Position numbers and translations under genes: made by a program. The notes below the pieces were generated by a model. It did not search any database, was not told the DNA's origin, and saw nothing but the letters and a program-made list of their open reading frames with translations. Positions 2,967-11,303 of a stretch of 64,000 nucleotides of DNA are shown one piece after another; position 1 is the stretch's first letter; each line of letters opens with the position of its first letter. The stretch comes from Rhodoluna sp. (GTDB lineage Bacteria; Actinomycetota; Actinomycetes; Actinomycetales; Microbacteriaceae), in the NCBI RefSeq assembly GCF_024639375.1, contig NZ_JAHEIM010000011.1, forward strand, positions 1-64,000. Reading direction: 5' to 3'.

Positions 2967-2989
2967 TATGTACATGATTATGTACATGA
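2967..2989 (+). promoter_or_regulatory. Tandem palindromic repeat, candidate autoregulatory operator of the toxin-antitoxin operon
   Basis: TATGTACATGA occurs twice (2967-2977 and 2979-2989), 12 bp apart. Each copy contains the perfect palindrome ATGTACAT, so the two palindromes lie about one helical turn apart on the same DNA face. They overlap three possible in-frame ATG codons of the antitoxin. Phd/YefM antitoxins normally repress their own promoter by binding short palindromes. That this is the operator is inferred. Confidence 0.55.
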
Positions 2990-3285
2990 AGTATTACTCA
3001 ATGGCCGAGGCCAGGGCGAATTTTGCCAAATTGATTGATTCAGCTGAAGAAACTCACGAGCGCATAGTTATCACCAGAAATGGCGAACCCGCAGCCATCA
3101 TTCTTGGAATCGATGATTATGAAGACATGCATGATGAACTCGAACTCTATACAAATCCAATTCTCATAAAGCAGATTGAAGACGACATTGCTTATAACGA
3201 GGCTCACCCTGAGGAGTCTGTGACTGGCGAAGAAATGCGAAAGATCCTTGACGAGCGATGGGCTCGTGAGGGCAAAAGTGAGTAG
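2986..3285 (+). CDS. Phd/YefM-family antitoxin
   Basis: Antitoxin of a type II toxin-antitoxin pair; it should bind and neutralise the downstream RelE-like toxin and repress the operon. The N-terminal MAEARANFAKLIDSAEE and ITRNGEPAAIILGIDDYE are the hallmark Phd/YefM dimerisation and DNA-binding fold. The charged C-terminal part (from about residue 50) would be the toxin-binding tail. In-frame ATGs also occur at 2968, 2974 and 2980, but these lie inside the palindromic repeat, so I prefer ATG 2986 (99 residues, beginning MKYYSMAEAR). The stop codon overlaps the toxin start. The pair stands alone between purS and unrelated secreted-protein genes, which suggests acquisition by transfer. Confidence 0.88.
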   Translation: MKYYSMAEARANFAKLIDSAEETHERIVITRNGEPAAIILGIDDYEDMHDELELYTNPILIKQIEDDIAYNEAHPEESVTGEEMRKILDERWAREGKSE

Positions 3286-3547
3286 GTACATACTCGTTTA
3301 CAAACCCGCAGCTAAAAGATCTTTAGCCAAGCTACCGCTGAAGGTCGTTGACGCTATCGTAAATTTTTGCGACGGACCTCTTTTAGACAACCCATATCGG
3401 GTTGGCAAACCGCTGCGTAATAAATACGCCGGAAGCTACTACGCAAAAAGAGGTTCCTACCGAATCATTTATTTGATAAATGACTACGAGGTAATCGTGA
3501 CGGTGGCGCGCATCGAACACCGCGCCGATATATATAAACCTGAGTAG
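3278..3547 (+). CDS. RelE/ParE-family toxin
   Basis: About 89 residues starting at GTG 3278, which overlaps the antitoxin stop by 8 bp (GTGAGTAG) and has a GAGGG-type ribosome site just upstream; TTG 3248 is a longer in-frame alternative. The C-terminal RGSYRIIYLI, then VTVARIEHRADIY, is the RelE/ParE signature, where the Arg of the YRIIY strand and the late HR are the usual active-site positions. RelE members cleave mRNA on the ribosome, while ParE members poison gyrase. The HRADIY ending favours the RelE side. Translational coupling to the antitoxin is as expected. Confidence 0.88.
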   Translation: MSRYILVYKPAAKRSLAKLPLKVVDAIVNFCDGPLLDNPYRVGKPLRNKYAGSYYAKRGSYRIIYLINDYEVIVTVARIEHRADIYKPE

Positions 3548-3642: not shown

Positions 3643-4170
3643 GTGCAAAAACTTTGGATACGCGTTTTGGTCGCCGTAGTCACATTCGGTGCGTTGTTGG
3701 GTGGCGGGGTTTCATCTGCGGCAGTTGCTGCAACGGTTGGCAAAACCACAACAGCTAAGGGCCCCACCGGTCAGGTGCTCACCGCCAACATTTCGCGTGG
3801 TGTGCTGGCAGCCGGCAAAACCACCACGGTCACCATCACGGGCAGGGGCTACAACACCAAGCTCGGAATTTATGTGACGTTTTGCGTGATTCCCGAAAAG
3901 GGCAAGCGCCCAGAGTTGTGTGGCCCGTTTGATATCACCGGAGCCAACAACCAATCGGTTTGGATTTCCTCAAACCCACCGATTTATGCAAAGTTGCTTG
4001 TCGTTCCATTTGGCAAGGGCGGCACATTCAAAGTAAAAATGCCAATCGATAAAACCATCGGCGACAACATCGACTGCACAGTTGAACGCTGCGCCATTCT
4101 TACTCGCGCCGATCACACCAACTCGGATAACCGAAAAGCCGACGTGATTATCCCCGTCACGTTTAAATAA
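3643..4170 (+). CDS. Secreted protein with neocarzinostatin-like fold
   Basis: A 175-residue exported protein starting at GTG 3643, with a classical signal peptide (VRVLVAVVTFGALLGGG, then an Ala-rich cleavage region near residue 30). The mature part has four cysteines. A Cys pair 12 apart lies around residues 80-93, and the pair DCTVERC (spacing 5) is followed by a strand ending in VIIPVTF. This matches the cysteine layout of apo-neocarzinostatin, whose second disulfide also spans 5 residues (DCTTAAC). The fold is an immunoglobulin-like beta sandwich; the family includes enediyne carriers, but most members have no known function. The next gene is a paralogue 8 bp away. No enediyne genes are nearby, so the function is unknown. 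Confidence 0.7.
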   Translation: MQKLWIRVLVAVVTFGALLGGGVSSAAVAATVGKTTTAKGPTGQVLTANISRGVLAAGKTTTVTITGRGYNTKLGIYVTFCVIPEKGKRPELCGPFDITGANNQSVWISSNPPIYAKLLVVPFGKGGTFKVKMPIDKTIGDNIDCTVERCAILTRADHTNSDNRKADVIIPVTFK

Positions 4171-4178
4171 GGAGAAAA

Positions 4179-4886
4179 ATGAACAACACTCGTATTCGTG
4201 CAATTGCACTTGGTGCAGCAGCACTAACTGCTTTGAGCGCAATGGTTGCCGTTGCACCGGCTCAGGCAGCCGACTTTAGCGTGACCGCCGACAAGTCTGT
4301 TGGCCTAAATGCAGCTGGCGACACCGTAAACGTAACCTTGAACAACTTGCCTGCAGACACCGGCGTTTATGTGCGCCTTTGTGCGGGCAGTGCCGCGGAT
4401 GCGTTGAAGGCCCGCCCAACTAGCTGCTTTGGTCAGGGTGCCTGGGCTTCAAATGCCGCAACCTCAATTGCTCAGCACGCTAGCGATGCATCAAAGCCAA
4501 TTGCACTTGCAGTTCAGGCAAGTTTTGTTTCGGGCACCACCGCAGTTAACTGCTTGACTCAGGCTTGCAGCATTCACATTCGCCGTGATCACCTAAACCC
4601 AACTGACTTTTCGCTTGACCGTGTAGTGCCAGTAACCTTTGCTGACCTAACTACTCAGAGTGCAACTGCTGCAGTTGTTGCAAAGAAGTTGGCTGTGACC
4701 CTAAACAATGTTGACGGCGAGAAAGTTGTCATCAGCGTGAGCAACAAAAAGTACACCCGCGTTGTGAAGGGTGCCGTTTATGTCGCTAAGTTGCCATTGC
4801 CAGCAAACAAGAAGTTGAAGGCCGCAACCGTAGTTGTGGTTGCCGATGGAATCGAGATCTACCGCGAGCTAGTTAGGTTGCGCTAA
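4179..4886 (+). CDS. Secreted protein with neocarzinostatin-like fold and extra C-terminal beta domain
   Basis: A 235-residue paralogue of the preceding gene, with RBS AGGAG before ATG 4179. The signal peptide ends at about residue 31 (VAPAQA). The neocarzinostatin-like part carries LCAG...SCFG and then NCLTQAC (spacing 5) and IRRDH...VVPVTF, parallel to the first protein. It extends about 75 residues beyond that domain, with alternating strands (LAVTLNNV, KVVISVSN, VYVAKLPL, TVVVVADG) that suggest a second small beta domain. It is probably cotranscribed with its neighbour. The stop overlaps the convergent TetR gene by 14 bp. Its role is unknown; cell-surface or ligand binding is a guess from the fold. 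Confidence 0.68.
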   Translation: MNNTRIRAIALGAAALTALSAMVAVAPAQAADFSVTADKSVGLNAAGDTVNVTLNNLPADTGVYVRLCAGSAADALKARPTSCFGQGAWASNAATSIAQHASDASKPIALAVQASFVSGTTAVNCLTQACSIHIRRDHLNPTDFSLDRVVPVTFADLTTQSATAAVVAKKLAVTLNNVDGEKVVISVSNKKYTRVVKGAVYVAKLPLPANKKLKAATVVVVADGIEIYRELVRLR

Positions 4887-5448
4887 TACTTGCGGTAATA
4901 CCCGCAATCGCAAATTGTTCGAGGGCGGCGGCTTCTCTGCTGAAGTCGCTGCCTTCATCAATTCGTTTGGCCGAGGCTGCCACTGATGCGTAAATTAAGT
5001 GTGCAGTTGCAGTTGTGTCTTGCACGCCCAACTGACCGATTGGGCTGAGCAGCGCCATCATGAAGTGACCGTGCATCGCATTCAACATGCCACGTTTTTC
5101 GGCAGGCAATGAATCAATCGAAATTTGTCGAATAATTCTGTGCTCGGCACTTGCCAGGTGAGCCAGCGAATAATGAATCCAAATGCGAATGCGCTCAAGC
5201 GGGTCTTCAAGTTTTGCAATGTGCATTTCAATGGCGTTGCTCAAGTCGGCCATCTCATTGATCACAAGTTCGGCGAGCACATCTTCTTTAGAAGCAAAGT
5301 ATTGATAAATCGCTGGGCGGCTAAGGCCGGTTGCCTTGGCAAGGCCGGCCATCGAAACCGCATCGACTCCTGATGTAGCAATTAGCGACTGCGCTGCAGC
5401 AAGAATATCTTCTTGGCGCTTGTCTCTAACAATTTTGGCTGGAGTCAT
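4873..5448 (-). CDS. TetR/AcrR-family transcriptional regulator
   Basis: A 191-residue regulator. The N-terminal helix-turn-helix is plain: RQEDILAAAQSLIATSG, then MAGLAKATGLSRPAIYQYF at about residues 33-51. The C-terminal ligand-binding half is not informative. It follows the multicopper oxidase gene by 41 bp on the same strand, so it may end the cstR-cdr-oxidase transcript and respond to copper or oxidative stress, but nothing in the sequence names its ligand. Its last 14 bp overlap the convergent secreted-protein gene. Confidence 0.85.
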   Translation of the reverse strand: MTPAKIVRDKRQEDILAAAQSLIATSGVDAVSMAGLAKATGLSRPAIYQYFASKEDVLAELVINEMADLSNAIEMHIAKLEDPLERIRIWIHYSLAHLASAEHRIIRQISIDSLPAEKRGMLNAMHGHFMMALLSPIGQLGVQDTTATAHLIYASVAASAKRIDEGSDFSREAAALEQFAIAGITASISAT

Positions 5449-5489
5449 GGAAGTTTAATTTTATCGTCGATTTTGGGCCGGTCGATGGG

Positions 5490-6956
5490 CTACTTGGCTC
5501 GAATAATGCCCATCATGCCGGCGTCTTCGTGATCAAGAATGTGGCAGTGATAAACGGCGTTAGCCGAATGGTTTTCAAATGCAATGCGCACCACCGATGT
5601 GCTGAGCGGCGGAACAATCACAACGTCTTGCCACTGGGCATCGGCAATAGCATCGCCGCCAACGCTCAACAGCTGCATCGGCCACACGTGCAGGTGAAAC
5701 GGGTGGCTCATGTTGCTGGTGTTGGTGATGGTCCACTCTTCAATGGTGTTCATAGCCACCGTGGTGTTTACCTTGGTCATGTCGAATGCCTCGCCATTAA
5801 TGGTGAAGCCGGTCATGGCGTGGTTCGTTGAGCCCATGCCATTCATGCCACCCATCATCGAGCCCATTGCTGGCATTTCAAGGCTGAAGTTGCGCTTGGC
5901 AATTACTGCTTTACCTCGGATGTCGCGAGGCTTAGTGCCTACCGGCAAGGCGGCCAAGTCGCTGGCGGCCGGCCCGGCATCCGAGGCTGAATCGCTTGGG
6001 GTGAATTTTGCAATCACTTGATTGGTGATTGGTGTGGTTGACATCATTGCGTCTGGATGCGCGATTGAGTCAAACATCAGCTGCACTTCTTGCGAGCTCA
6101 TGGTGGCAACAATGTCGGCGCGGTTGCCCGGTGCAAGCACAAGGCTTTGGAAGTCTTTGGCGTTTTGGTAGCGACCTGAATCCATGCCCAGCAATTGCAG
6201 AGTTGCGCCGCTAACGTGCAGATTTACAAATCTTGAAGTGCAGGCGTTCACAATGCGCCAGCGCTCGCGGCCATTCGTAAGGGAATTAAAAGTTGGAATG
6301 TTGTGGCCATTGACCAGAACCAACGAACCTTCGCGGCCCATCATTTTTGACATCATGTCTGGCGTCGCAATTTGGCCTGCGTTGTCGAATGCGATGTCAG
6401 AAATGACCAGCACTCGTTCAAAGGTGTTTTCAATTAATTCTTTGTCGTCGATCACAATTGCGCCATAGAGACCGGCGAATACTTGGTCGGCAGCAAAGCC
6501 GTGGTGGTGAGGGTGGTACCAAAAAGTACCACTCGGATGATCGGCAGCAATTTGGTATTTGTAGGTGAAGCTCTCGCCGTCTTTTATTTCGAGCATCACA
6601 TTGTCGCTGTTGCCCTCGGGTGAAACGTGAAAACCGTGCGTGTGCAAGTTGGTAGTTTCACCAAGTTGGTTTTTGAAATTCACGGTAATTTCATCGCCGG
6701 GTTGCACATGCCAGGTTGGGCCAGGCAAGGTGCCGTTATAAGTTTTGGCATGAACCGTTTGACCAGCAAGTTCAACGTCAGTTTTTTGTGCGACTAAATC
6801 AACTACTAATTTGCCATTCTTGCTGCGCAAAATGTTGGGTTCAAGTGGTGCAACGGTAACCTGTGCGACTGGGGATAACAAACCGCAAGCGGCCAATGCA
6901 ACCGTGCCTGCAGCAGCGCCTGCGCCAAAGAGAACTGTTCTGCGTGAAATAGTCAT
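5490..6956 (-). CDS. Multicopper oxidase, CueO-like, Tat-exported lipoprotein
   Basis: A 488-residue extracytoplasmic oxidase. The N-terminus has a Tat motif (SRRTVLFGAG) followed by a lipobox-like LAACG ending near residue 24, so it is probably exported folded with copper and lipid-anchored. All four copper-ligand boxes are visible: HTHGFH and WYHPHHHG in the first cupredoxin domain, and HPFHLHVWP and YHCHILDHEDAGMMG at the C-terminus. A Met-rich loop (MPAMGSMMGGMNGMGS) resembles the cuprous-oxidase segment of CueO, so Cu(I) detoxification is the likeliest role; laccase-like activity is possible. It follows the CoA-disulfide reductase gene by 51 bp and is probably cotranscribed with it. Confidence 0.92.
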   Translation of the reverse strand: MTISRRTVLFGAGAAAGTVALAACGLLSPVAQVTVAPLEPNILRSKNGKLVVDLVAQKTDVELAGQTVHAKTYNGTLPGPTWHVQPGDEITVNFKNQLGETTNLHTHGFHVSPEGNSDNVMLEIKDGESFTYKYQIAADHPSGTFWYHPHHHGFAADQVFAGLYGAIVIDDKELIENTFERVLVISDIAFDNAGQIATPDMMSKMMGREGSLVLVNGHNIPTFNSLTNGRERWRIVNACTSRFVNLHVSGATLQLLGMDSGRYQNAKDFQSLVLAPGNRADIVATMSSQEVQLMFDSIAHPDAMMSTTPITNQVIAKFTPSDSASDAGPAASDLAALPVGTKPRDIRGKAVIAKRNFSLEMPAMGSMMGGMNGMGSTNHAMTGFTINGEAFDMTKVNTTVAMNTIEEWTITNTSNMSHPFHLHVWPMQLLSVGGDAIADAQWQDVVIVPPLSTSVVRIAFENHSANAVYHCHILDHEDAGMMGIIRAK

Positions 6957-7007
6957 GCTCGCATCTTAACTTTCTAGGCTGGGCGTTGACTGGGCTCCGA
7001 CTAAAAC

Positions 7008-8642
7008 TTACTTTGCGAGTGCCGCTTCGCCGGCGGCCCAAGTTAGGTATCCGCCGCTCAGGTTCTTAACGTTTGCGCCGTGAGCTTTCAAAATCTGAGT
7101 GGCGATGTGACCACGCTGACCCACCTGGCAATACACCACAACATCTTCCATTTGCACTTCTGCAAGGCGGTCACGCAGTTCATCCACAGGAATATTGATT
7201 GTGCCTGGGATGTTGGCGAAGCCGTGCTCGCCACCCGAACGAACGTCGATAACCTGAGCGCCATTTGCGCGAGCGGCCTCGAGTTCGTGCCACTGCAATG
7301 TTGGTGTTGTGCCATTGAAGACATTGTTGCCAACGTAGCCGGCGATGTTGATTGCGTCTTTGGCCGAGCCGAATTGCGGTGCATAAGCAAGCTCGAGATC
7401 CATTAGGTCGTCGATGGTTAAGCCGCCCATCATTGCGGTGGCAATGACATCGAGGCGCTTGTCAACGCCGTCTTCACCATAGGCCTGGGCGCCAAGTAGT
7501 TTGCCGGTTGCTGGGTCGAAGAGCACCTTCATGCTTAGGCGCTTTGAGCCAGGGTAGTAGCCGGCGTGATTGTTTGGGTGAATGTGAATCACCTGGTGCT
7601 TGATGCCAGCCTTGGTTGCAGCGCGCTCACTCAAGCCTGTGATGCCAGTTGCTAGGCCGAAGGCGCCGATGATTACCGTGCCCACAGCGTTGCGCGCCTT
7701 GGTGTTGCGGCCTGCAATTACATCGGCAACCAAGCGGCCATGACGGTTTGCCAAGTTTGCCAACGGAATCAAAGTTTGGTTGCCAGTAAGTTCGCCATGT
7801 TTTTCAACGGCATCGCCAGCGGCAAAAATATCTGGGTCACTGGTGCCTTGTTGGTCATCGACCCACAGGCCGCCGGTCTCACCAATCTTGAGGCCTGCGT
7901 CACGTGCAAGTGTGTTGTCTGGGTCAACACCAGCAGCAGTGAATACCAACCCGGCATCAATCTTGCGGCCATCGGCTAACACAACATGGGTATCGGTAAT
8001 TTGTTTTGGTTGTGCATTGAGTTCGATTACTACGCCGTGCTTTTGCAAGCGTGCGTGCAACGGTTGAATCATCTCTGGGTCAAATTGCCCCAGGATGCTG
8101 TTGCTGCGTTGAATGATGGTCACTGGAATATCTAGGTGACGAATATTTTCTGCAAGTTCGATGCCGATGAAACCTGCACCAATGATTGCAACCGATTTAT
8201 TTTCAAGATTTTGCAATGCCGCTTTCACGGCGTCTGCATCGGTGACATTGCGCAGCCACATTGCTCGCTCGATGCCAGGCACGTCAAGTTTGCGTGGTCT
8301 TGCACCGGTAGAAATGATCAGTTTGTCGTAGTTATCGGTGTGTGTTGTGCCGGTCTGCAAGTTTTTAACCTCAATAGTTTTTTCGGCGCGGTTGATTTTG
8401 GTAACCATCAACTGCACGTGTGCTTTGATGCGAAAGCGACTGAAGAGTGCAGCCGGAGTTTGCAGCAGCAGGTTGTCTCGACGCGAGATTACATCGCTCA
8501 CAAAATAAGGCAGGCCACAGTTGGCATAGCTAACGTGCTCGCTCATTTCATATACGGTGATTTCGGCGTGCTCGTCTAGTCGACGCAAACGCGCTGCTGC
8601 AGACATACCGCCGGCAACGCCACCAATGATTACAACCTTCAA
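7008..8642 (-). CDS. CoA-disulfide reductase / persulfide reductase with C-terminal rhodanese domain
   Basis: A 544-residue protein from TTG 8642, chosen because GGAG lies 6 bp upstream and the FAD motif VVIIGGVAGG follows at once; the frame extends upstream to 8765, but that part is not family-like. Domains: FAD/NAD(P)H reductase (1 to about 440) with the redox Cys42 in NCGLPYF, then a rhodanese domain with the catalytic loop YCQVGQRG at Cys505. Proteins of this architecture reduce CoA disulfide, CoA persulfide or polysulfide with NAD(P)H. It lies directly downstream of a CstR-like repressor gene whose known relatives sense persulfides, which supports a role in sulfane-sulfur disposal. Confidence 0.9.
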   Translation of the reverse strand: MKVVIIGGVAGGMSAAARLRRLDEHAEITVYEMSEHVSYANCGLPYFVSDVISRRDNLLLQTPAALFSRFRIKAHVQLMVTKINRAEKTIEVKNLQTGTTHTDNYDKLIISTGARPRKLDVPGIERAMWLRNVTDADAVKAALQNLENKSVAIIGAGFIGIELAENIRHLDIPVTIIQRSNSILGQFDPEMIQPLHARLQKHGVVIELNAQPKQITDTHVVLADGRKIDAGLVFTAAGVDPDNTLARDAGLKIGETGGLWVDDQQGTSDPDIFAAGDAVEKHGELTGNQTLIPLANLANRHGRLVADVIAGRNTKARNAVGTVIIGAFGLATGITGLSERAATKAGIKHQVIHIHPNNHAGYYPGSKRLSMKVLFDPATGKLLGAQAYGEDGVDKRLDVIATAMMGGLTIDDLMDLELAYAPQFGSAKDAINIAGYVGNNVFNGTTPTLQWHELEAARANGAQVIDVRSGGEHGFANIPGTINIPVDELRDRLAEVQMEDVVVYCQVGQRGHIATQILKAHGANVKNLSGGYLTWAAGEAALAK

Positions 8643-8697
8643 GGTCACTCCTTTATATGTAGCTACGAAAACTCTAGGTGTTTGCTTTAGGCCAAGA

Positions 8698-8955
8698 TTA
8701 GGCCAGCGACATAAATGCTTTTTCAAGGGCCACGCGTTCTGCGTCACCCTCTGGGTTATGGGCACAGGCGCGCATGCCGGTTGAAATGATGGTGAAACCA
8801 GCGCGGGTAAGTGCTGTGGATGCCGCCGACAGCTGGTTAAGCAATTCGGTGCATTCGCGACCTTCGTCGAGCATCTTTACTATGCCGCCAATTTGGCCCT
8901 GCACACGCACTAGGCGATCGCGGGCTGCTTTCAGTTCGGCTGGTTCAAGTTGCAT
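8698..8955 (-). CDS. CsoR/CstR-family repressor, probable persulfide sensor
   Basis: An 85-residue, all-helical DUF156 repressor with AGGAG before ATG 8955. The family core is clear: RLVRVQGQIGGIVKML at residues 14-29, RECTELL with Cys35, and GMRAC with Cys64. Copper-sensing CsoR uses Cys-His-Cys, with the His four residues before the second Cys. Here that position (residue 60) is Gly, while the Cys-Cys spacing of 29 matches both CsoR and CstR. Loss of the His is typical of CstR-type sensors that form di- or trisulfide links with persulfide. The neighbouring rhodanese and CoA-disulfide reductase genes agree. The exact inducer is inferred. Confidence 0.88.
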   Translation of the reverse strand: MQLEPAELKAARDRLVRVQGQIGGIVKMLDEGRECTELLNQLSAASTALTRAGFTIISTGMRACAHNPEGDAERVALEKAFMSLA

Positions 8956-8993
8956 TTTTTTGCTCCTGGGTAGTTGCGCTTTTGGTATTTCTT

Positions 8994-9013
8994 ACTATAC
9001 CCTAGGGGGTATA
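8994..9013. promoter_or_regulatory. CsoR/CstR-type operator in the divergent promoter
   Basis: TATACCC (8996-9002) and GGGTATA (9007-9013) form a perfect 7-bp inverted repeat around a 4-bp centre, the form expected for CsoR-family operators (ATACCC...GGGTAT). On the minus strand it overlaps a good -10 hexamer TATAGT (8994-8999) for the repressor gene. On the plus strand TTGCGC (8974-8979) and TATACC (8996-9001), 16 bp apart, could serve the rhodanese gene. One dimer pair here could silence both directions. Confidence 0.72.
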
Positions 9014-9028
9014 CGAAGGGAAGTGCGA

Positions 9029-9400
9029 ATGTCACGTTTCATCAAAGTTCTGGCAGCGGGTTTGATCGCTCTGTTTGCCATTGGTTCGCTAAGCGCCTGT
9101 GCCGCTTCGCAGCCTATGGATATGTCTTCGGTTGCTGCGGTTATCGATGTGCGCACTCCAGCTGAGTGGGCCACCGGCCACCTCGACGGTGCCATCAACA
9201 TCGATGTGCAGGGTGCTGATTTTGCATCCGCGGTGGATGCTCTTGATCACACCGCCAACTATGTGGTCTATTGCCACTCAGGCAACCGTGCGGGTCAAGC
9301 AATCGAACTTATGAAGGGTGCGGGTTTCACCGGCACTCTCACCAACGGCGGTGGCGTGGTTGATGCTGCCCAACTAACCAACATGAAAGTAGTGCAATAA
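9029..9400 (+). CDS. Rhodanese-domain lipoprotein
   Basis: A 123-residue exported rhodanese starting at ATG 9029, with GAAGGGAAG as ribosome site 7 bp upstream. A longer open frame to 8774 runs through the divergent operator and repressor gene and is rejected. The signal peptide FIKVLAAGLIALFAIGSL ends in the lipobox LSAC (Cys24). The single rhodanese domain has DVRTPAEW and the catalytic loop YCHSGNRAG. Rhodaneses carry sulfane sulfur on the active Cys. Outside the membrane it could accept or donate persulfide, or detoxify thiosulfate or cyanide. It heads a plus-strand transcript with two Cys-rich mini-proteins, under the probable CstR-type operator. Confidence 0.88.
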   Translation: MSRFIKVLAAGLIALFAIGSLSACAASQPMDMSSVAAVIDVRTPAEWATGHLDGAINIDVQGADFASAVDALDHTANYVVYCHSGNRAGQAIELMKGAGFTGTLTNGGGVVDAAQLTNMKVVQ

Positions 9401-9568
9401 ATGTGTTCTCGCGTCACCTGCCGCAAGTGCGGCAAAGCAACTTGGTCTGGCTGCGGTCAGCACGTTAACGAAGTAATGCGCGGCATTCCAAAGTCACAGC
9501 AGTGTCAGGGTCACGCCAACGACCCTAAAAGTCCAAGTTTCTTTGCTCGACTATTTGGCAAGAAGTAA
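9401..9568 (+). CDS. Cysteine-rich mini-protein (55 residues), zinc-ribbon-like
   Basis: A short gene starting at the base directly after the rhodanese stop codon (TAA then ATG 9401). The 55 residues begin MCSRVTCRKCGKATWSGCGQH and end in a basic tail (FFARLFGKK). Six cysteines occur, in the pattern MC-x4-C-x2-C-x7-C, with another CQGH at about 35-38. Closely similar small proteins are, as far as I recall, annotated only as hypothetical in many bacteria. The Cys/His layout suggests zinc or copper binding or acceptance of sulfane sulfur. Tight coupling to the rhodanese gene and the paralogue downstream make it a real gene. Function unknown. Confidence 0.8.
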   Translation: MCSRVTCRKCGKATWSGCGQHVNEVMRGIPKSQQCQGHANDPKSPSFFARLFGKK

Positions 9569-9612
9569 TCGAAATTTTCTAATCCTCAACAACTCATCGA
9601 AGGGAAAAAACT

Positions 9613-9732
9613 ATGTGTTCACCAGCTCTATGCAGCAACTGCGGCAAAGTTACTTGGACCGGCTGTGGCGGTCACATCGAAGAAGCGCTTGAGGGTGTTC
9701 CTCAAGAGCAGCTTTGCACCTGCAACCAGTAA
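9613..9732 (+). CDS. Cysteine-rich mini-protein (39 residues), paralogue of the preceding gene
   Basis: ATG 9613 is preceded by AAGGGA. The 39 residues begin MCSPALCSNCGKVTWTGCGGH and end QLCTCNQ. It keeps the pattern of the 55-residue protein (MCS-x3-C-x2-CGK-x-TW-x-GCG-x-H, then E-x(n)-GVP and Cys near the end) and adds a second C-terminal Cys to give CTC. Six of 39 residues are Cys. It lies 44 bp after its paralogue and just before a terminator, so it is the last gene of the rhodanese transcript. Metal or persulfide binding is inferred from composition and context only. Confidence 0.78.
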   Translation: MCSPALCSNCGKVTWTGCGGHIEEALEGVPQEQLCTCNQ

Positions 9733-9747
9733 TTGTTCTTTTGAATG

Positions 9748-9770
9748 CCCCGGATAACCTCCGGGGTTTT
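9748..9770 (+). terminator. Rho-independent terminator after the rhodanese/Cys-rich operon
   Basis: Perfect 7-bp stem CCCCGGA (9748-9754) / TCCGGGG (9760-9766) with loop TAACC, followed by TTTTCT. It lies 15 bp past the second mini-protein stop. The 111 bp from here to the next start (9882) hold no other clear element. Confidence 0.85.
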
Positions 9771-9881: not shown

Positions 9882-11303
9882 ATGCAAAACTTTGCGCTTA
9901 ATGGCCCCGAATGGGCCGCTTCTCTAAACACCGCCGAATCGCTTGTGCCGATTATTGGCCGCCTATACCGATCGAATGGAATTCTGCTTTCGGTGCATGG
10001 CCGACCGCTGATCAATCGCACGGCAATCGACCTTCTGAAGGCGATGAGATTTGCCCGGCACCGTGATGGTGAAACCCTCGATATCAACCGAGTTGCCGAA
10101 TTGGTTCGAACCATCGACTCACTGCAGCTGCCATCTGCCGAGATCAACGTGGCTGCAATGTTGGCAAAGCAGGCTGCTTCGGGCAAGAGCATCGAAGCAT
10201 TTGCATCCGAGGAATTGAACGCGATTGAACCAAGCGATGACAGTGCGCGCGATGTTGTGCTTTATGGCTTTGGTCGCATTGGCCGCCAGGTGGCCCGAAT
10301 TTTGTTGGCACAAGATGCCGGCAACCGTGGCCTAAAGGTGCGTGCAATTGTGGTGCGCAACGGTGGCAAAGATGATTTGGCCAAGCGGGCAAGTTTGCTT
10401 CGCCGCGATTCTGTGCACGGTATGTTTGACGGCATTATTACCGTGGATGCCGATTCGAATTCCATCATTGCGAATGGGAACCAGATCAAAGTTATTTACT
10501 CAAATGACCCGAGCACTGTTGATTATGAAGCGCACGGAATTCACAACGCATTGGTGATTGACAACACCGGCAAGTGGCGCGATGAAGCTGGGTTGACTCA
10601 ACACCTCAGCAGCAAAGGCGCTGCCAAGGTTCTGCTGACTGCACCAGGCAAAGGCAGTTTGCCAAATGTTGTTTTCGGCATCAATCAAAATGACTTTGAT
10701 GCAACTACCAAAATTGTTTCGGCTGCGTCTTGCACAACTAACGCCGTGGTGCCGGTGCTAAAGGTTTTGAACGATGCATTTGGAGTTAAGCATGGCCACG
10801 TTGAAACCGTGCACTCATTTACCAATGACCAAAATTTGATTGACAACTTTCACAGTGGTGACCGCCGAGGTCGCTCTGCGGTGTTGAACATGGTGATTAC
10901 AGAAACCGGTGCAGCGCAAGCTGCAGCCAAGGCACTGCCTGCACTTGCTGGCAAATTAACGGGTAGCTCGATTCGCGTGCCAACCCCGGATGTGTCGATG
11001 GCAATTTTGAACTTGAACTTTGACAAAGAGGTTTCGATCGAGTCATTGAACAAAGTTTTGCGTGATGCAGCGCTAGACCCAGTTACCCGCGATCAAATTG
11101 ATTACATTGAATCGCCAGAAGTTGTGTCGACCGATTTGGTTGGTTCAACACATGCTGGTGTGGTTGACAGTCTTGCTACCCAGGGCGGCGGCAACAACGG
11201 TGTTGTTTACGTTTGGTACGACAATGAAAACGGTTATTCAAACCAAGTTGTACGCATTGCACAAAAGATGATGCTGGTTGAGCGCCCGGTTTATCCGAGG
11301 TAA
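9882..11303 (+). CDS. Glyceraldehyde-3-phosphate dehydrogenase, long GapB-like form
   Basis: 473 residues, about 130 more than ordinary GapA. The N-terminal extension (1 to about 125) precedes the NAD(P) motif GFGRIGR (129-135); the catalytic Cys284 lies in SAASCTTNA, and the partner box with HSFTNDQ follows. Long enzymes of this kind, such as Corynebacterium glutamicum GapB, favour the gluconeogenic direction and can use NADP. Whether this is the only GAPDH of the cell cannot be seen here. It stands alone on the plus strand after a terminator and is convergent with purC, with only 4 bp between the stops. Confidence 0.9.
   Translation: MQNFALNGPEWAASLNTAESLVPIIGRLYRSNGILLSVHGRPLINRTAIDLLKAMRFARHRDGETLDINRVAELVRTIDSLQLPSAEINVAAMLAKQAASGKSIEAFASEELNAIEPSDDSARDVVLYGFGRIGRQVARILLAQDAGNRGLKVRAIVVRNGGKDDLAKRASLLRRDSVHGMFDGIITVDADSNSIIANGNQIKVIYSNDPSTVDYEAHGIHNALVIDNTGKWRDEAGLTQHLSSKGAAKVLLTAPGKGSLPNVVFGINQNDFDATTKIVSAASCTTNAVVPVLKVLNDAFGVKHGHVETVHSFTNDQNLIDNFHSGDRRGRSAVLNMVITETGAAQAAAKALPALAGKLTGSSIRVPTPDVSMAILNLNFDKEVSIESLNKVLRDAALDPVTRDQIDYIESPEVVSTDLVGSTHAGVVDSLATQGGGNNGVVYVWYDNENGYSNQVVRIAQKMMLVERPVYPR

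Follow-up and report, generated by a model that had tools for sequence, protein, structure and literature searches.

A putative persulfide-defence locus of Rhodoluna and a family of small Cys/His proteins that accompanies CstR-like repressors in Actinobacteria

The window analysed here, a stretch of 64,000 nucleotides of Rhodoluna sp. DNA, lies on contig C6 of a Rhodoluna-type genome (1.29 Mb, 94% complete) and carries a locus in which two sets of genes diverge around a CsoR-family repressor that we classify as CstR-like. Two small Cys/His proteins encoded there, mini1 and mini2, appear from their sequences and distribution to belong to the core of the CstR regulon in Actinobacteria; their family has no name so far, and they are the new element of the locus. 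The left arm, on the reverse strand, begins with the repressor gene cstR (8698..8955; DUF156, PF02583, E = 3 × 10-17; identified also by its ligand columns and PDB alignments). It continues through a fusion of a coenzyme A (CoA)-disulfide/persulfide reductase with a rhodanese (7008..8642; Pfam Pyr_redox_2, dimerisation and Rhodanese domains) and a three-domain multicopper oxidase (MCO; 5490..6956; Pfam Cu-oxidase domains), and ends with a TetR-family regulator (4873..5448; PF00440, E = 4 × 10-14); the intergenic gaps are about 55, 51 and 41 bases, respectively. The fusion probably starts at a TTG (8640-8642) with AAGGAG five bases upstream, and the 545-residue reading used for searches begins one codon before it. 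The right arm, on the forward strand, consists of a rhodanese-domain lipoprotein (9029..9400; PF00581, E = 3 × 10-14, with the lipobox LSAC and the active loop CHSGNR recognised by eye), mini1 (9401..9568, 55 residues), whose start codon abuts the rhodanese stop codon (9400/9401), and mini2 (9613..9732, 39 residues), which belongs to the short type of this family and has CTC close to its C-terminal end. A terminator-like hairpin with a T-rich tail follows mini2 (9747..9767, forward strand, from a hairpin scan); the region holds two such hairpins against a mean of 7.4 in shuffled sequences, so that this one is weak by itself. The stretch between the arms gave no sigma-70-like promoter in a consensus scan. 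All genes named in the first-pass annotation of this DNA are present, and the arrangement it described, a single CsoR-family gene divergent from a rhodanese lipoprotein and two Cys-rich mini-proteins, is confirmed.

The repressor scores 63.4 bits against the PF02583 cut-off of 22.8, which places it in the DUF156 fold family. Copper-sensing CsoR proteins hold their metal through the set Cys36-His61-Cys65. Aligned to its relatives and to 7mq1, the window regulator presents Cys35-Gly60-Cys64, that is, the two sensing cysteines, as judged by the positions of C31 and C60 in Staphylococcus aureus CstR, and a glycine in place of the copper-ligand histidine. A persulfide-sensor Cys pair without the copper His makes the regulator CstR-like, and copper control through a Cys-His-Cys CsoR is rejected for it. 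Its nearest solved relative, 7mq1/7mq2, was deposited as CsoR and appears as CstR in the excerpted text of PMC9774590. The best NCBIfam match is RicR, at 38 bits against a cut-off of 175, and a match this weak should leave the assignment unchanged. Among 121 CsoR-family matches from the window and loci L062-L238, the middle residue is small in 118 (69 Ala, 25 Ser, 22 Gly, 2 Thr) and His in 3, a count that includes some regions twice and that describes these loci, chosen like the profile around CstR-like or mini genes, rather than CsoR proteins at large. The cstR gene is also the only CsoR-family match found in the genome.

Within the 73-base gap between the arms lies an exact TATACCC-N4-GGGTATA (TATACCCTAGGGGGTATA, 8996..9013), which precedes the rhodanese ATG by 15 bases and that of cstR by 40, so that a single site can serve both arms; each half is 7 bp long, and the central TAGG is non-palindromic. 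The first-pass annotation had recognised this palindrome in the divergent promoter, with coordinates (8994-9013) that need correction. The site has counterparts at the same position in relatives. It is the sole match in the window within three mismatches and the sole match in the 1.29-Mb genome within two. Shuffled windows contained at least one match within three mismatches in 32 of 100 cases (mean 0.37), and hence the weight falls on the exactness of the operator and its conservation in relatives. That it is a chance match is rejected given this exactness, its uniqueness in the genome and the enrichment of such sites upstream of mini genes (see below). In Streptomyces, ScCsoR binds ATACC-N6-GGTAT in electrophoretic mobility shift assays (EMSA), polysulfide abolishes the binding, and Cys37 and Cys66 are involved (PMC7533328, in excerpt). 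The window operator contains this EMSA-proven site, and the window regulator is predicted to bind the TATACCC/GGGTATA-type operator, which is present and conserved. The C35-G60-C64 set, the relationship to 7mq1/7mq2 and the ScCsoR-type operator all support the original proposal that CstR-like control is joined here to persulfide handling, and we consider CstR-type persulfide control of the locus very probable.

The enzymes encoded in the two arms are consistent with such a role. The fusion joins a flavin-dependent (FAD) disulfide reductase to a C-terminal rhodanese, with one Cys in each (YANCGLP and VVYCQVG), and its nearest solved relatives are 3icr (CoADR) and 8a56 (named CoA-persulfide reductase). 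With 444.4 bits against the 578.8 required by the NCBIfam CoA-disulfide reductase model (TIGR03385), it is a close relative and is not filed as an equivalog. Across 150 genomes of the family, with presence of the fusion set at E < 1 × 10-80, a cut placed at a gap in the match list, fusion and CstR occur together in 52, the fusion alone in 2, CstR alone in 13 and neither in 83. Of the 93 distinct rhodanese matches of the loci, 60 carry a lipobox preceded by a hydrophobic stretch. This speaks for an extracellular action as well, and with it for the proposal that sulfane sulfur is disposed of on both sides of the membrane. Five long rhodanese genes hand-picked from such loci are all metallo-beta-lactamase-rhodanese fusions of the persulfide-dioxygenase type; four of them adjoin a mini gene, and the fifth locus (L125) has cstR and an MCO and no mini. 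The half of the earlier idea that concerns CstR and the CoA-persulfide reductase-rhodanese is right, and it is known in kind.

The mini-proteins are widespread. They occur in 31 of 60 genomes of the genus (17 of the 20 best assemblies), in 64 of the 150 family genomes and in 27 of 246 genomes drawn evenly from the phylum, the window's own genome included. A scan of named genomes gave at least 591 confirmed places, and by their titles the best 80 of these at least 591 are 78 actinobacteria, one Acidobacteria (L163, apparently mislabelled) and one uncultured bacterium (L187). The L163 match has the same position as that in L041 (G066:C17) of the family sample, which makes a wrong title of the L163 record probable. 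Mini relatives were also seen on four viral contigs (L325-L328) and in a phage record (MT835623), which may be bacterial flanks. With CstR presence defined as E up to 1 × 10-9, in a gap of the match list (9.7 × 10-10 to 3.8 × 10-8), mini and CstR are found together in 58 family genomes, the mini alone in 6, CstR alone in 7 and neither in 79 (P = 1.7 × 10-26). The association holds with one genome per genus (35, 2, 5 and 43, respectively; P = 5 × 10-16), and genomes that have only weak CsoR matches carry minis in 2 of 46 cases. In 42 of 64, 51 of 80 and 12 of 20 loci, cstR is found no more than 5 kb from a mini.

The operator follows the minis as well. A site with at most two mismatches lies within 150 bases upstream of the mini start in 49 of 75 family, 40 of 114 named and 4 of 29 phylum cases, against 10/2966, 42/3610 and 0/70 control windows, at a median distance of 38 bases from the start codon; some of the minis without an operator are second or later genes in a row. 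A motif-free 6-mer test returned GGGTAT/ATACCC as the top word, present in 59 of 143 upstream stretches compared with 88 of 2572. Even minis that have neither cstR nor the reductase within 5 kb show the operator upstream in 19 of the 21 family loci scored (of 22) and in 18 of 27 named loci. Gene order in relatives, a comparison proposed with the original idea, agrees: among 29 mini loci of the genus, 17 have cstR, a rhodanese gene and the operator within the retrieved stretch, and the other 12 comprise four with the reductase, one at a short contig end and seven with a mini2-type gene alone in the 1.5-kb flanks (four of the seven with an operator). Several named relatives (L170, L173 and L179 among them) have mini2, cstR, rhodanese, reductase and mini1 in one row. 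Plasmid pRHL3 of Rhodococcus RHA1 encodes a mini, annotated as a 'hypothetical protein', with thioredoxin, a rhodanese, a metal-sensitive regulator, DUF302 and TauE, and on pREL1 a mini for which no gene is listed lies near TauE, a rhodanese and DUF302. The first-pass annotation had seen the tiny Cys proteins at the locus and missed how closely they track CstR through the family. We regard it as highly probable, from this comparison, that the minis are members of the CstR regulon.

The sequences of the minis point to a metal site. Ten positions are invariant in 67 aligned members (M1, C2, C7, C10, W15, G17, C18, G19, H21 and C35). In 244 distinct members, collected with a pattern that covers C2 to H21, a CxxC, a CxxH and a final Cx(1-3)[C/H] are always present, the last of which the search pattern did not require: after the next Cys (Cys35) there is C at +2 in 92, H at +3 in 134 and H at +4 in 18, with no exceptions. 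Exchange of Cys and His at one position is the behaviour of metal ligands in structural metal sites, and a metal-thiolate site is favoured by it here. The Cys count is 5 or 6 in all 244, including Cys2 directly after the initiator Met. The long type, such as mini1, has a CxxH end motif and a recurring basic aromatic tail (SFFARLFGKK in mini1), and the short type has CxC at or near its end. The predicted structure is a hairpin with a short helix after H21 (mean predicted local distance difference test score, pLDDT, 81.5). Chance reading frames are rejected as an explanation of the minis by the invariant residues and by silent codon changes: between the window and the sister genome G010, mini1 differs silently in 22 codons and is identical at 132 of 165 bases and at 51 of 55 residues. 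The best named relative of mini1 comes from a Rhodoluna metagenome-assembled genome (95% identical).

The mini family matches no described family in the resources searched. A Pfam/NCBIfam scan of the 67 members returned no family, the best of the weak and scattered matches being E = 0.00052 (a family matched by 4 members) and 0.036 (by 7); no PDB sequence relative rose above a weak match (best E = 0.15), and PHROGs gave weak matches only (0.078 for mini2). A search of open-licence PubMed Central (PMC) papers found none recognisable as being about these proteins, and the peptide WAGCGQH occurs in none of those searched. Among 60 plasmid rows listed, the match falls under 'hypothetical protein' in 8, has no listed gene in 50 and lies in an unannotated record in 2, figures that reflect a PLSDB gene table that is incomplete.

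Taken together, we assign a probability of roughly 0.7 to the reading that the locus defends a Rhodoluna-like actinobacterium against persulfide (sulfane sulfur) under the control of CstR, with the minis as a core part of the regulon and candidate metal-thiolate acceptors; gene content, sensor type, operator and regulon membership are drawn from sequence and comparison. At rest, CstR would occupy the single palindrome between the arms and block transcription in both directions. Persulfides or polysulfides would bridge Cys35 and Cys64 and release the repressor, a derepression that we infer for this locus, upon which the left arm would supply more CstR and the CoA-persulfide reductase-rhodanese, and the right arm the outward-facing rhodanese lipoprotein and the two minis. 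Each mini may fold around a metal-thiolate site, probably of zinc, formed by CxxC, CxxH and the final Cx(1-3)[C/H], leaving as spare thiols the other conserved Cys, among them Cys2 next to the initiator Met. The minis could then act as an induced acceptor or relay that takes up sulfane sulfur for the rhodanese and the reductase. The ligand pattern makes such a role as metal-thiolate acceptor conceivable, though we hold it with somewhat less than even confidence, and a precedent is PerR, where sulfane sulfur is reported to act on a structural zinc site (PMC9952342). Still more tentatively, the minis may be to sulfur what metallothionein is to metals, a novel type of metal-thiolate sink induced by persulfide: their Cys, both zinc-bound and free, would take up sulfane sulfur and pass it to the rhodanese and the CoA-persulfide reductase, and the proteins would be the near-obligate CstR effector in much of the Actinobacteria.

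Several points count against this reading. The persulfide response of the locus is itself something we infer, and the operators of Cu-CsoR, RicR and ScCsoR are reported to be similar (PMC7533328, in excerpt), so that the site alone cannot name the signal. The presence cut-offs were set after the match lists had been seen, and when any CsoR match at 1 × 10-3 is admitted the association with minis is weaker (60, 4, 51 and 35; P = 1.2 × 10-6). Solitary minis of the phylum sample have the operator upstream in 1 of 8 loci (two others, L283 and L286, have a 2-mismatch site that overlaps the start codon and was not counted as upstream), which speaks against a phylum-wide rule or points to drift of the site or loss of the link in those genomes. 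The annotation of pREL1 lists no CsoR-family gene at 5 kb or less from the mini. The structural model of the mini is confident in its core only, with pLDDT of about 55-60 over the last 15 residues, and a fold search with it returned ten matches, the best at E = 5.6, and no solved fold; metal binding thus rests on the ligand pattern, and a purely structural role of zinc is possible.

This last point leads to the alternative that survives best, in which persulfide control is accepted and the minis are structural or regulatory zinc fingers that take no part in handling sulfur themselves and bind, for example, CstR, RNA polymerase, mRNA or the rhodanese. We consider it a serious though not the favoured possibility. 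The Cys/His interchange at the last ligand position, the predicted hairpin with its short helix and the basic aromatic tail of the long type, which suggests a docking part, all suit a zinc finger. Against it stand the tight coupling of the minis to the persulfide regulon, frequently as solitary genes preceded by an operator, and their five or six cysteines, Cys2 among them, which exceed the need of one zinc.

The place of the MCO and the TetR gene has to be considered separately. By eye, the MCO has a Tat-type RR, a lipobox-like LAAC, a Met-rich stretch and four Cu motifs, which we take to be HTH, HPHHHG, HPFHLH and HCHxxxHxxxGM; its nearest solved relatives are a Thermus laccase and CueO. Three Pfam Cu-oxidase domains, the four motifs and the Met-rich stretch agree with the CueO type, and a score of 199.4 bits against the NCBIfam CueO equivalog cut-off of 525 makes it CueO-like only. 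Matches occur in 22 of the 150 family genomes and in 5 of the 60 genus genomes, many of which are incomplete. Among these five, only the window's MCO stands at the CstR locus: that of G444 is about 48 kb from the minis, that of G010 about 176 kb away, that of G405 on another contig, and that of G431 is a 28% match in a genome without a mini match; neither reductase nor mini was found in the 1.5-kb flanks of these four. In G010, the MCO stands apart, together with a Cys-His-Cys CsoR and a P-type-ATPase-like gene, and the 16 kb examined around the CstR-rhodanese-mini locus contain no MCO. The CsoR-family gene near the G444 MCO is of the Cys-His-His type by eye, and TetR genes at relatives' loci are scattered matches to a large family, with no conservation seen there. 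The MCO is hence rejected as a conserved partner in the genus, a fixed place of the copper oxidase in the locus is not supported, and MCO and TetR are a local addition in the window.

Outside the genus, however, the MCO is an optional member that has repeatedly joined such loci. The regions fetched outside the genus, together with that of G010, represent 17 of the 24 non-window matches in the family sample; a CstR-like (Cys-Ala-Cys) regulator is present in 4, a Cys-His-Cys one in 2 and none in 11. When four named loci are added, 8 of 21 MCO loci have an operator-like site no more than 1 kb upstream of the gene, compared with 13 of 797 control windows. MCO, reductase and mini stand in a row in Agromyces (L159 and L204), and in Salinibacterium (L162) the MCO precedes a mini. 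These associations would fit a functional link of the MCO-TetR pair to the persulfide response, for instance in guarding against copper that sulfane sulfur frees or makes toxic. Such a link is nonetheless unlikely in our view, given the MCOs that lie off the CstR locus in all four other MCO-bearing genomes of the genus, the lack of a Cu transporter in the operon and an operator that cannot separate copper from sulfur control. It is less probable still that a CsoR/RicR-like repressor governs a copper locus of cuprous oxidase and metallothionein-like minis with the sulfur enzymes as bystanders, as the same-strand MCO just behind the reductase, the MCO-linked operators, the RicR match, the ligand-rich minis and the RicR regulon of Mycobacterium tuberculosis (mmcO, mymT) might suggest, for the regulator lacks the copper His, the minis accompany strong CstR-like matches and not genomes with weak CsoR matches only, G010 keeps its MCO and Cys-His-Cys CsoR apart from the CstR-mini locus, and MCO matches occur in 5 genus genomes against 31 for the minis.

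Some further observations concern copper genes and the neighbourhood. The genome has two E1-E2 ATPase matches, L323 (G000:C8) and L324 (G000:C3); one carries CPH and has an N-terminus rich in His, which looks CopB-like by eye, and the other carries TPC. Five loci of relatives (L225, L229, L230, L231 and L233) contain a recurring module of an MCO with SHOCT- and/or DUF302-like small proteins (by eye) and an operator-like site. In the window, two overlapping small genes at 2968-3547 resemble by eye an antitoxin-toxin pair, presumably Phd/YefM-like and RelE-like; two tandem proteins with signal-like N-termini at 3643-4886 weakly resemble the enediyne chromoprotein model NF040680, scoring 15.5 and 19.7 bits against a cut-off of 86; and a long-form GAPDH of 473 residues (9882-11303; NF006139, 706 bits against 431) follows the locus.

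At issue are the thiol that accepts reactive sulfur in bacterial cells and the way in which such sulfur is buffered; the CstR-controlled rhodaneses of Enterococcus faecalis are described as having unknown in-cell donors and acceptors (PMC9405070, in excerpt). The minis, which track a persulfide repressor and its operator through many actinobacteria, are a direct candidate for such an acceptor; they are easily overlooked, being rarely annotated among the plasmid rows listed, and small enough for immediate production and testing.

Known systems share parts of this arrangement. In the cst-like operon of E. faecalis, CstR, a dithiol repressor, controls CoAPR (a CoA-persulfide reductase-rhodanese fusion), RhdA and RhdB, the same kinds of protein as in the window, whereas minis, a divergent lipoprotein-rhodanese arm and an MCO are not mentioned in the excerpted text (PMC9405070). 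The circuit of Streptomyces coelicolor (ScCsoR SCO0620, persulfide dioxygenase, rhodanese and TauE) has the same kind of two-Cys CsoR-like sensor, the ATACC-N6-GGTAT operator and one site shared by the promoters of regulator and rhodanese, but it relies on persulfide dioxygenase and sulfite export and, as excerpted, is a four-gene circuit without a mini-protein (PMC7533328). The YrkD cluster of Bacillus licheniformis likewise has a CstR-like repressor that leaves DNA on sulfane sulfur, and possible sulfur carriers in its operon; there the carriers are DsrE/TusA homologues, and SQR and persulfide dioxygenase are present (PMC9918477, in excerpt). The first-pass annotation knew of no described partnership of this kind with a copper oxidase and tiny Cys proteins; the RicR regulon of M. 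tuberculosis combines a CsoR-family repressor, the multicopper oxidase mmcO and the 53-residue Cys protein mymT (PMC10470581, in excerpt). That regulon is copper-responsive, whereas the window regulator has Gly where a Cys-His-Cys sensor has its copper His. Set against these systems, the mini family stands out as the new part: the sulfur half of the locus is of a described kind, and its copper half is a local feature.

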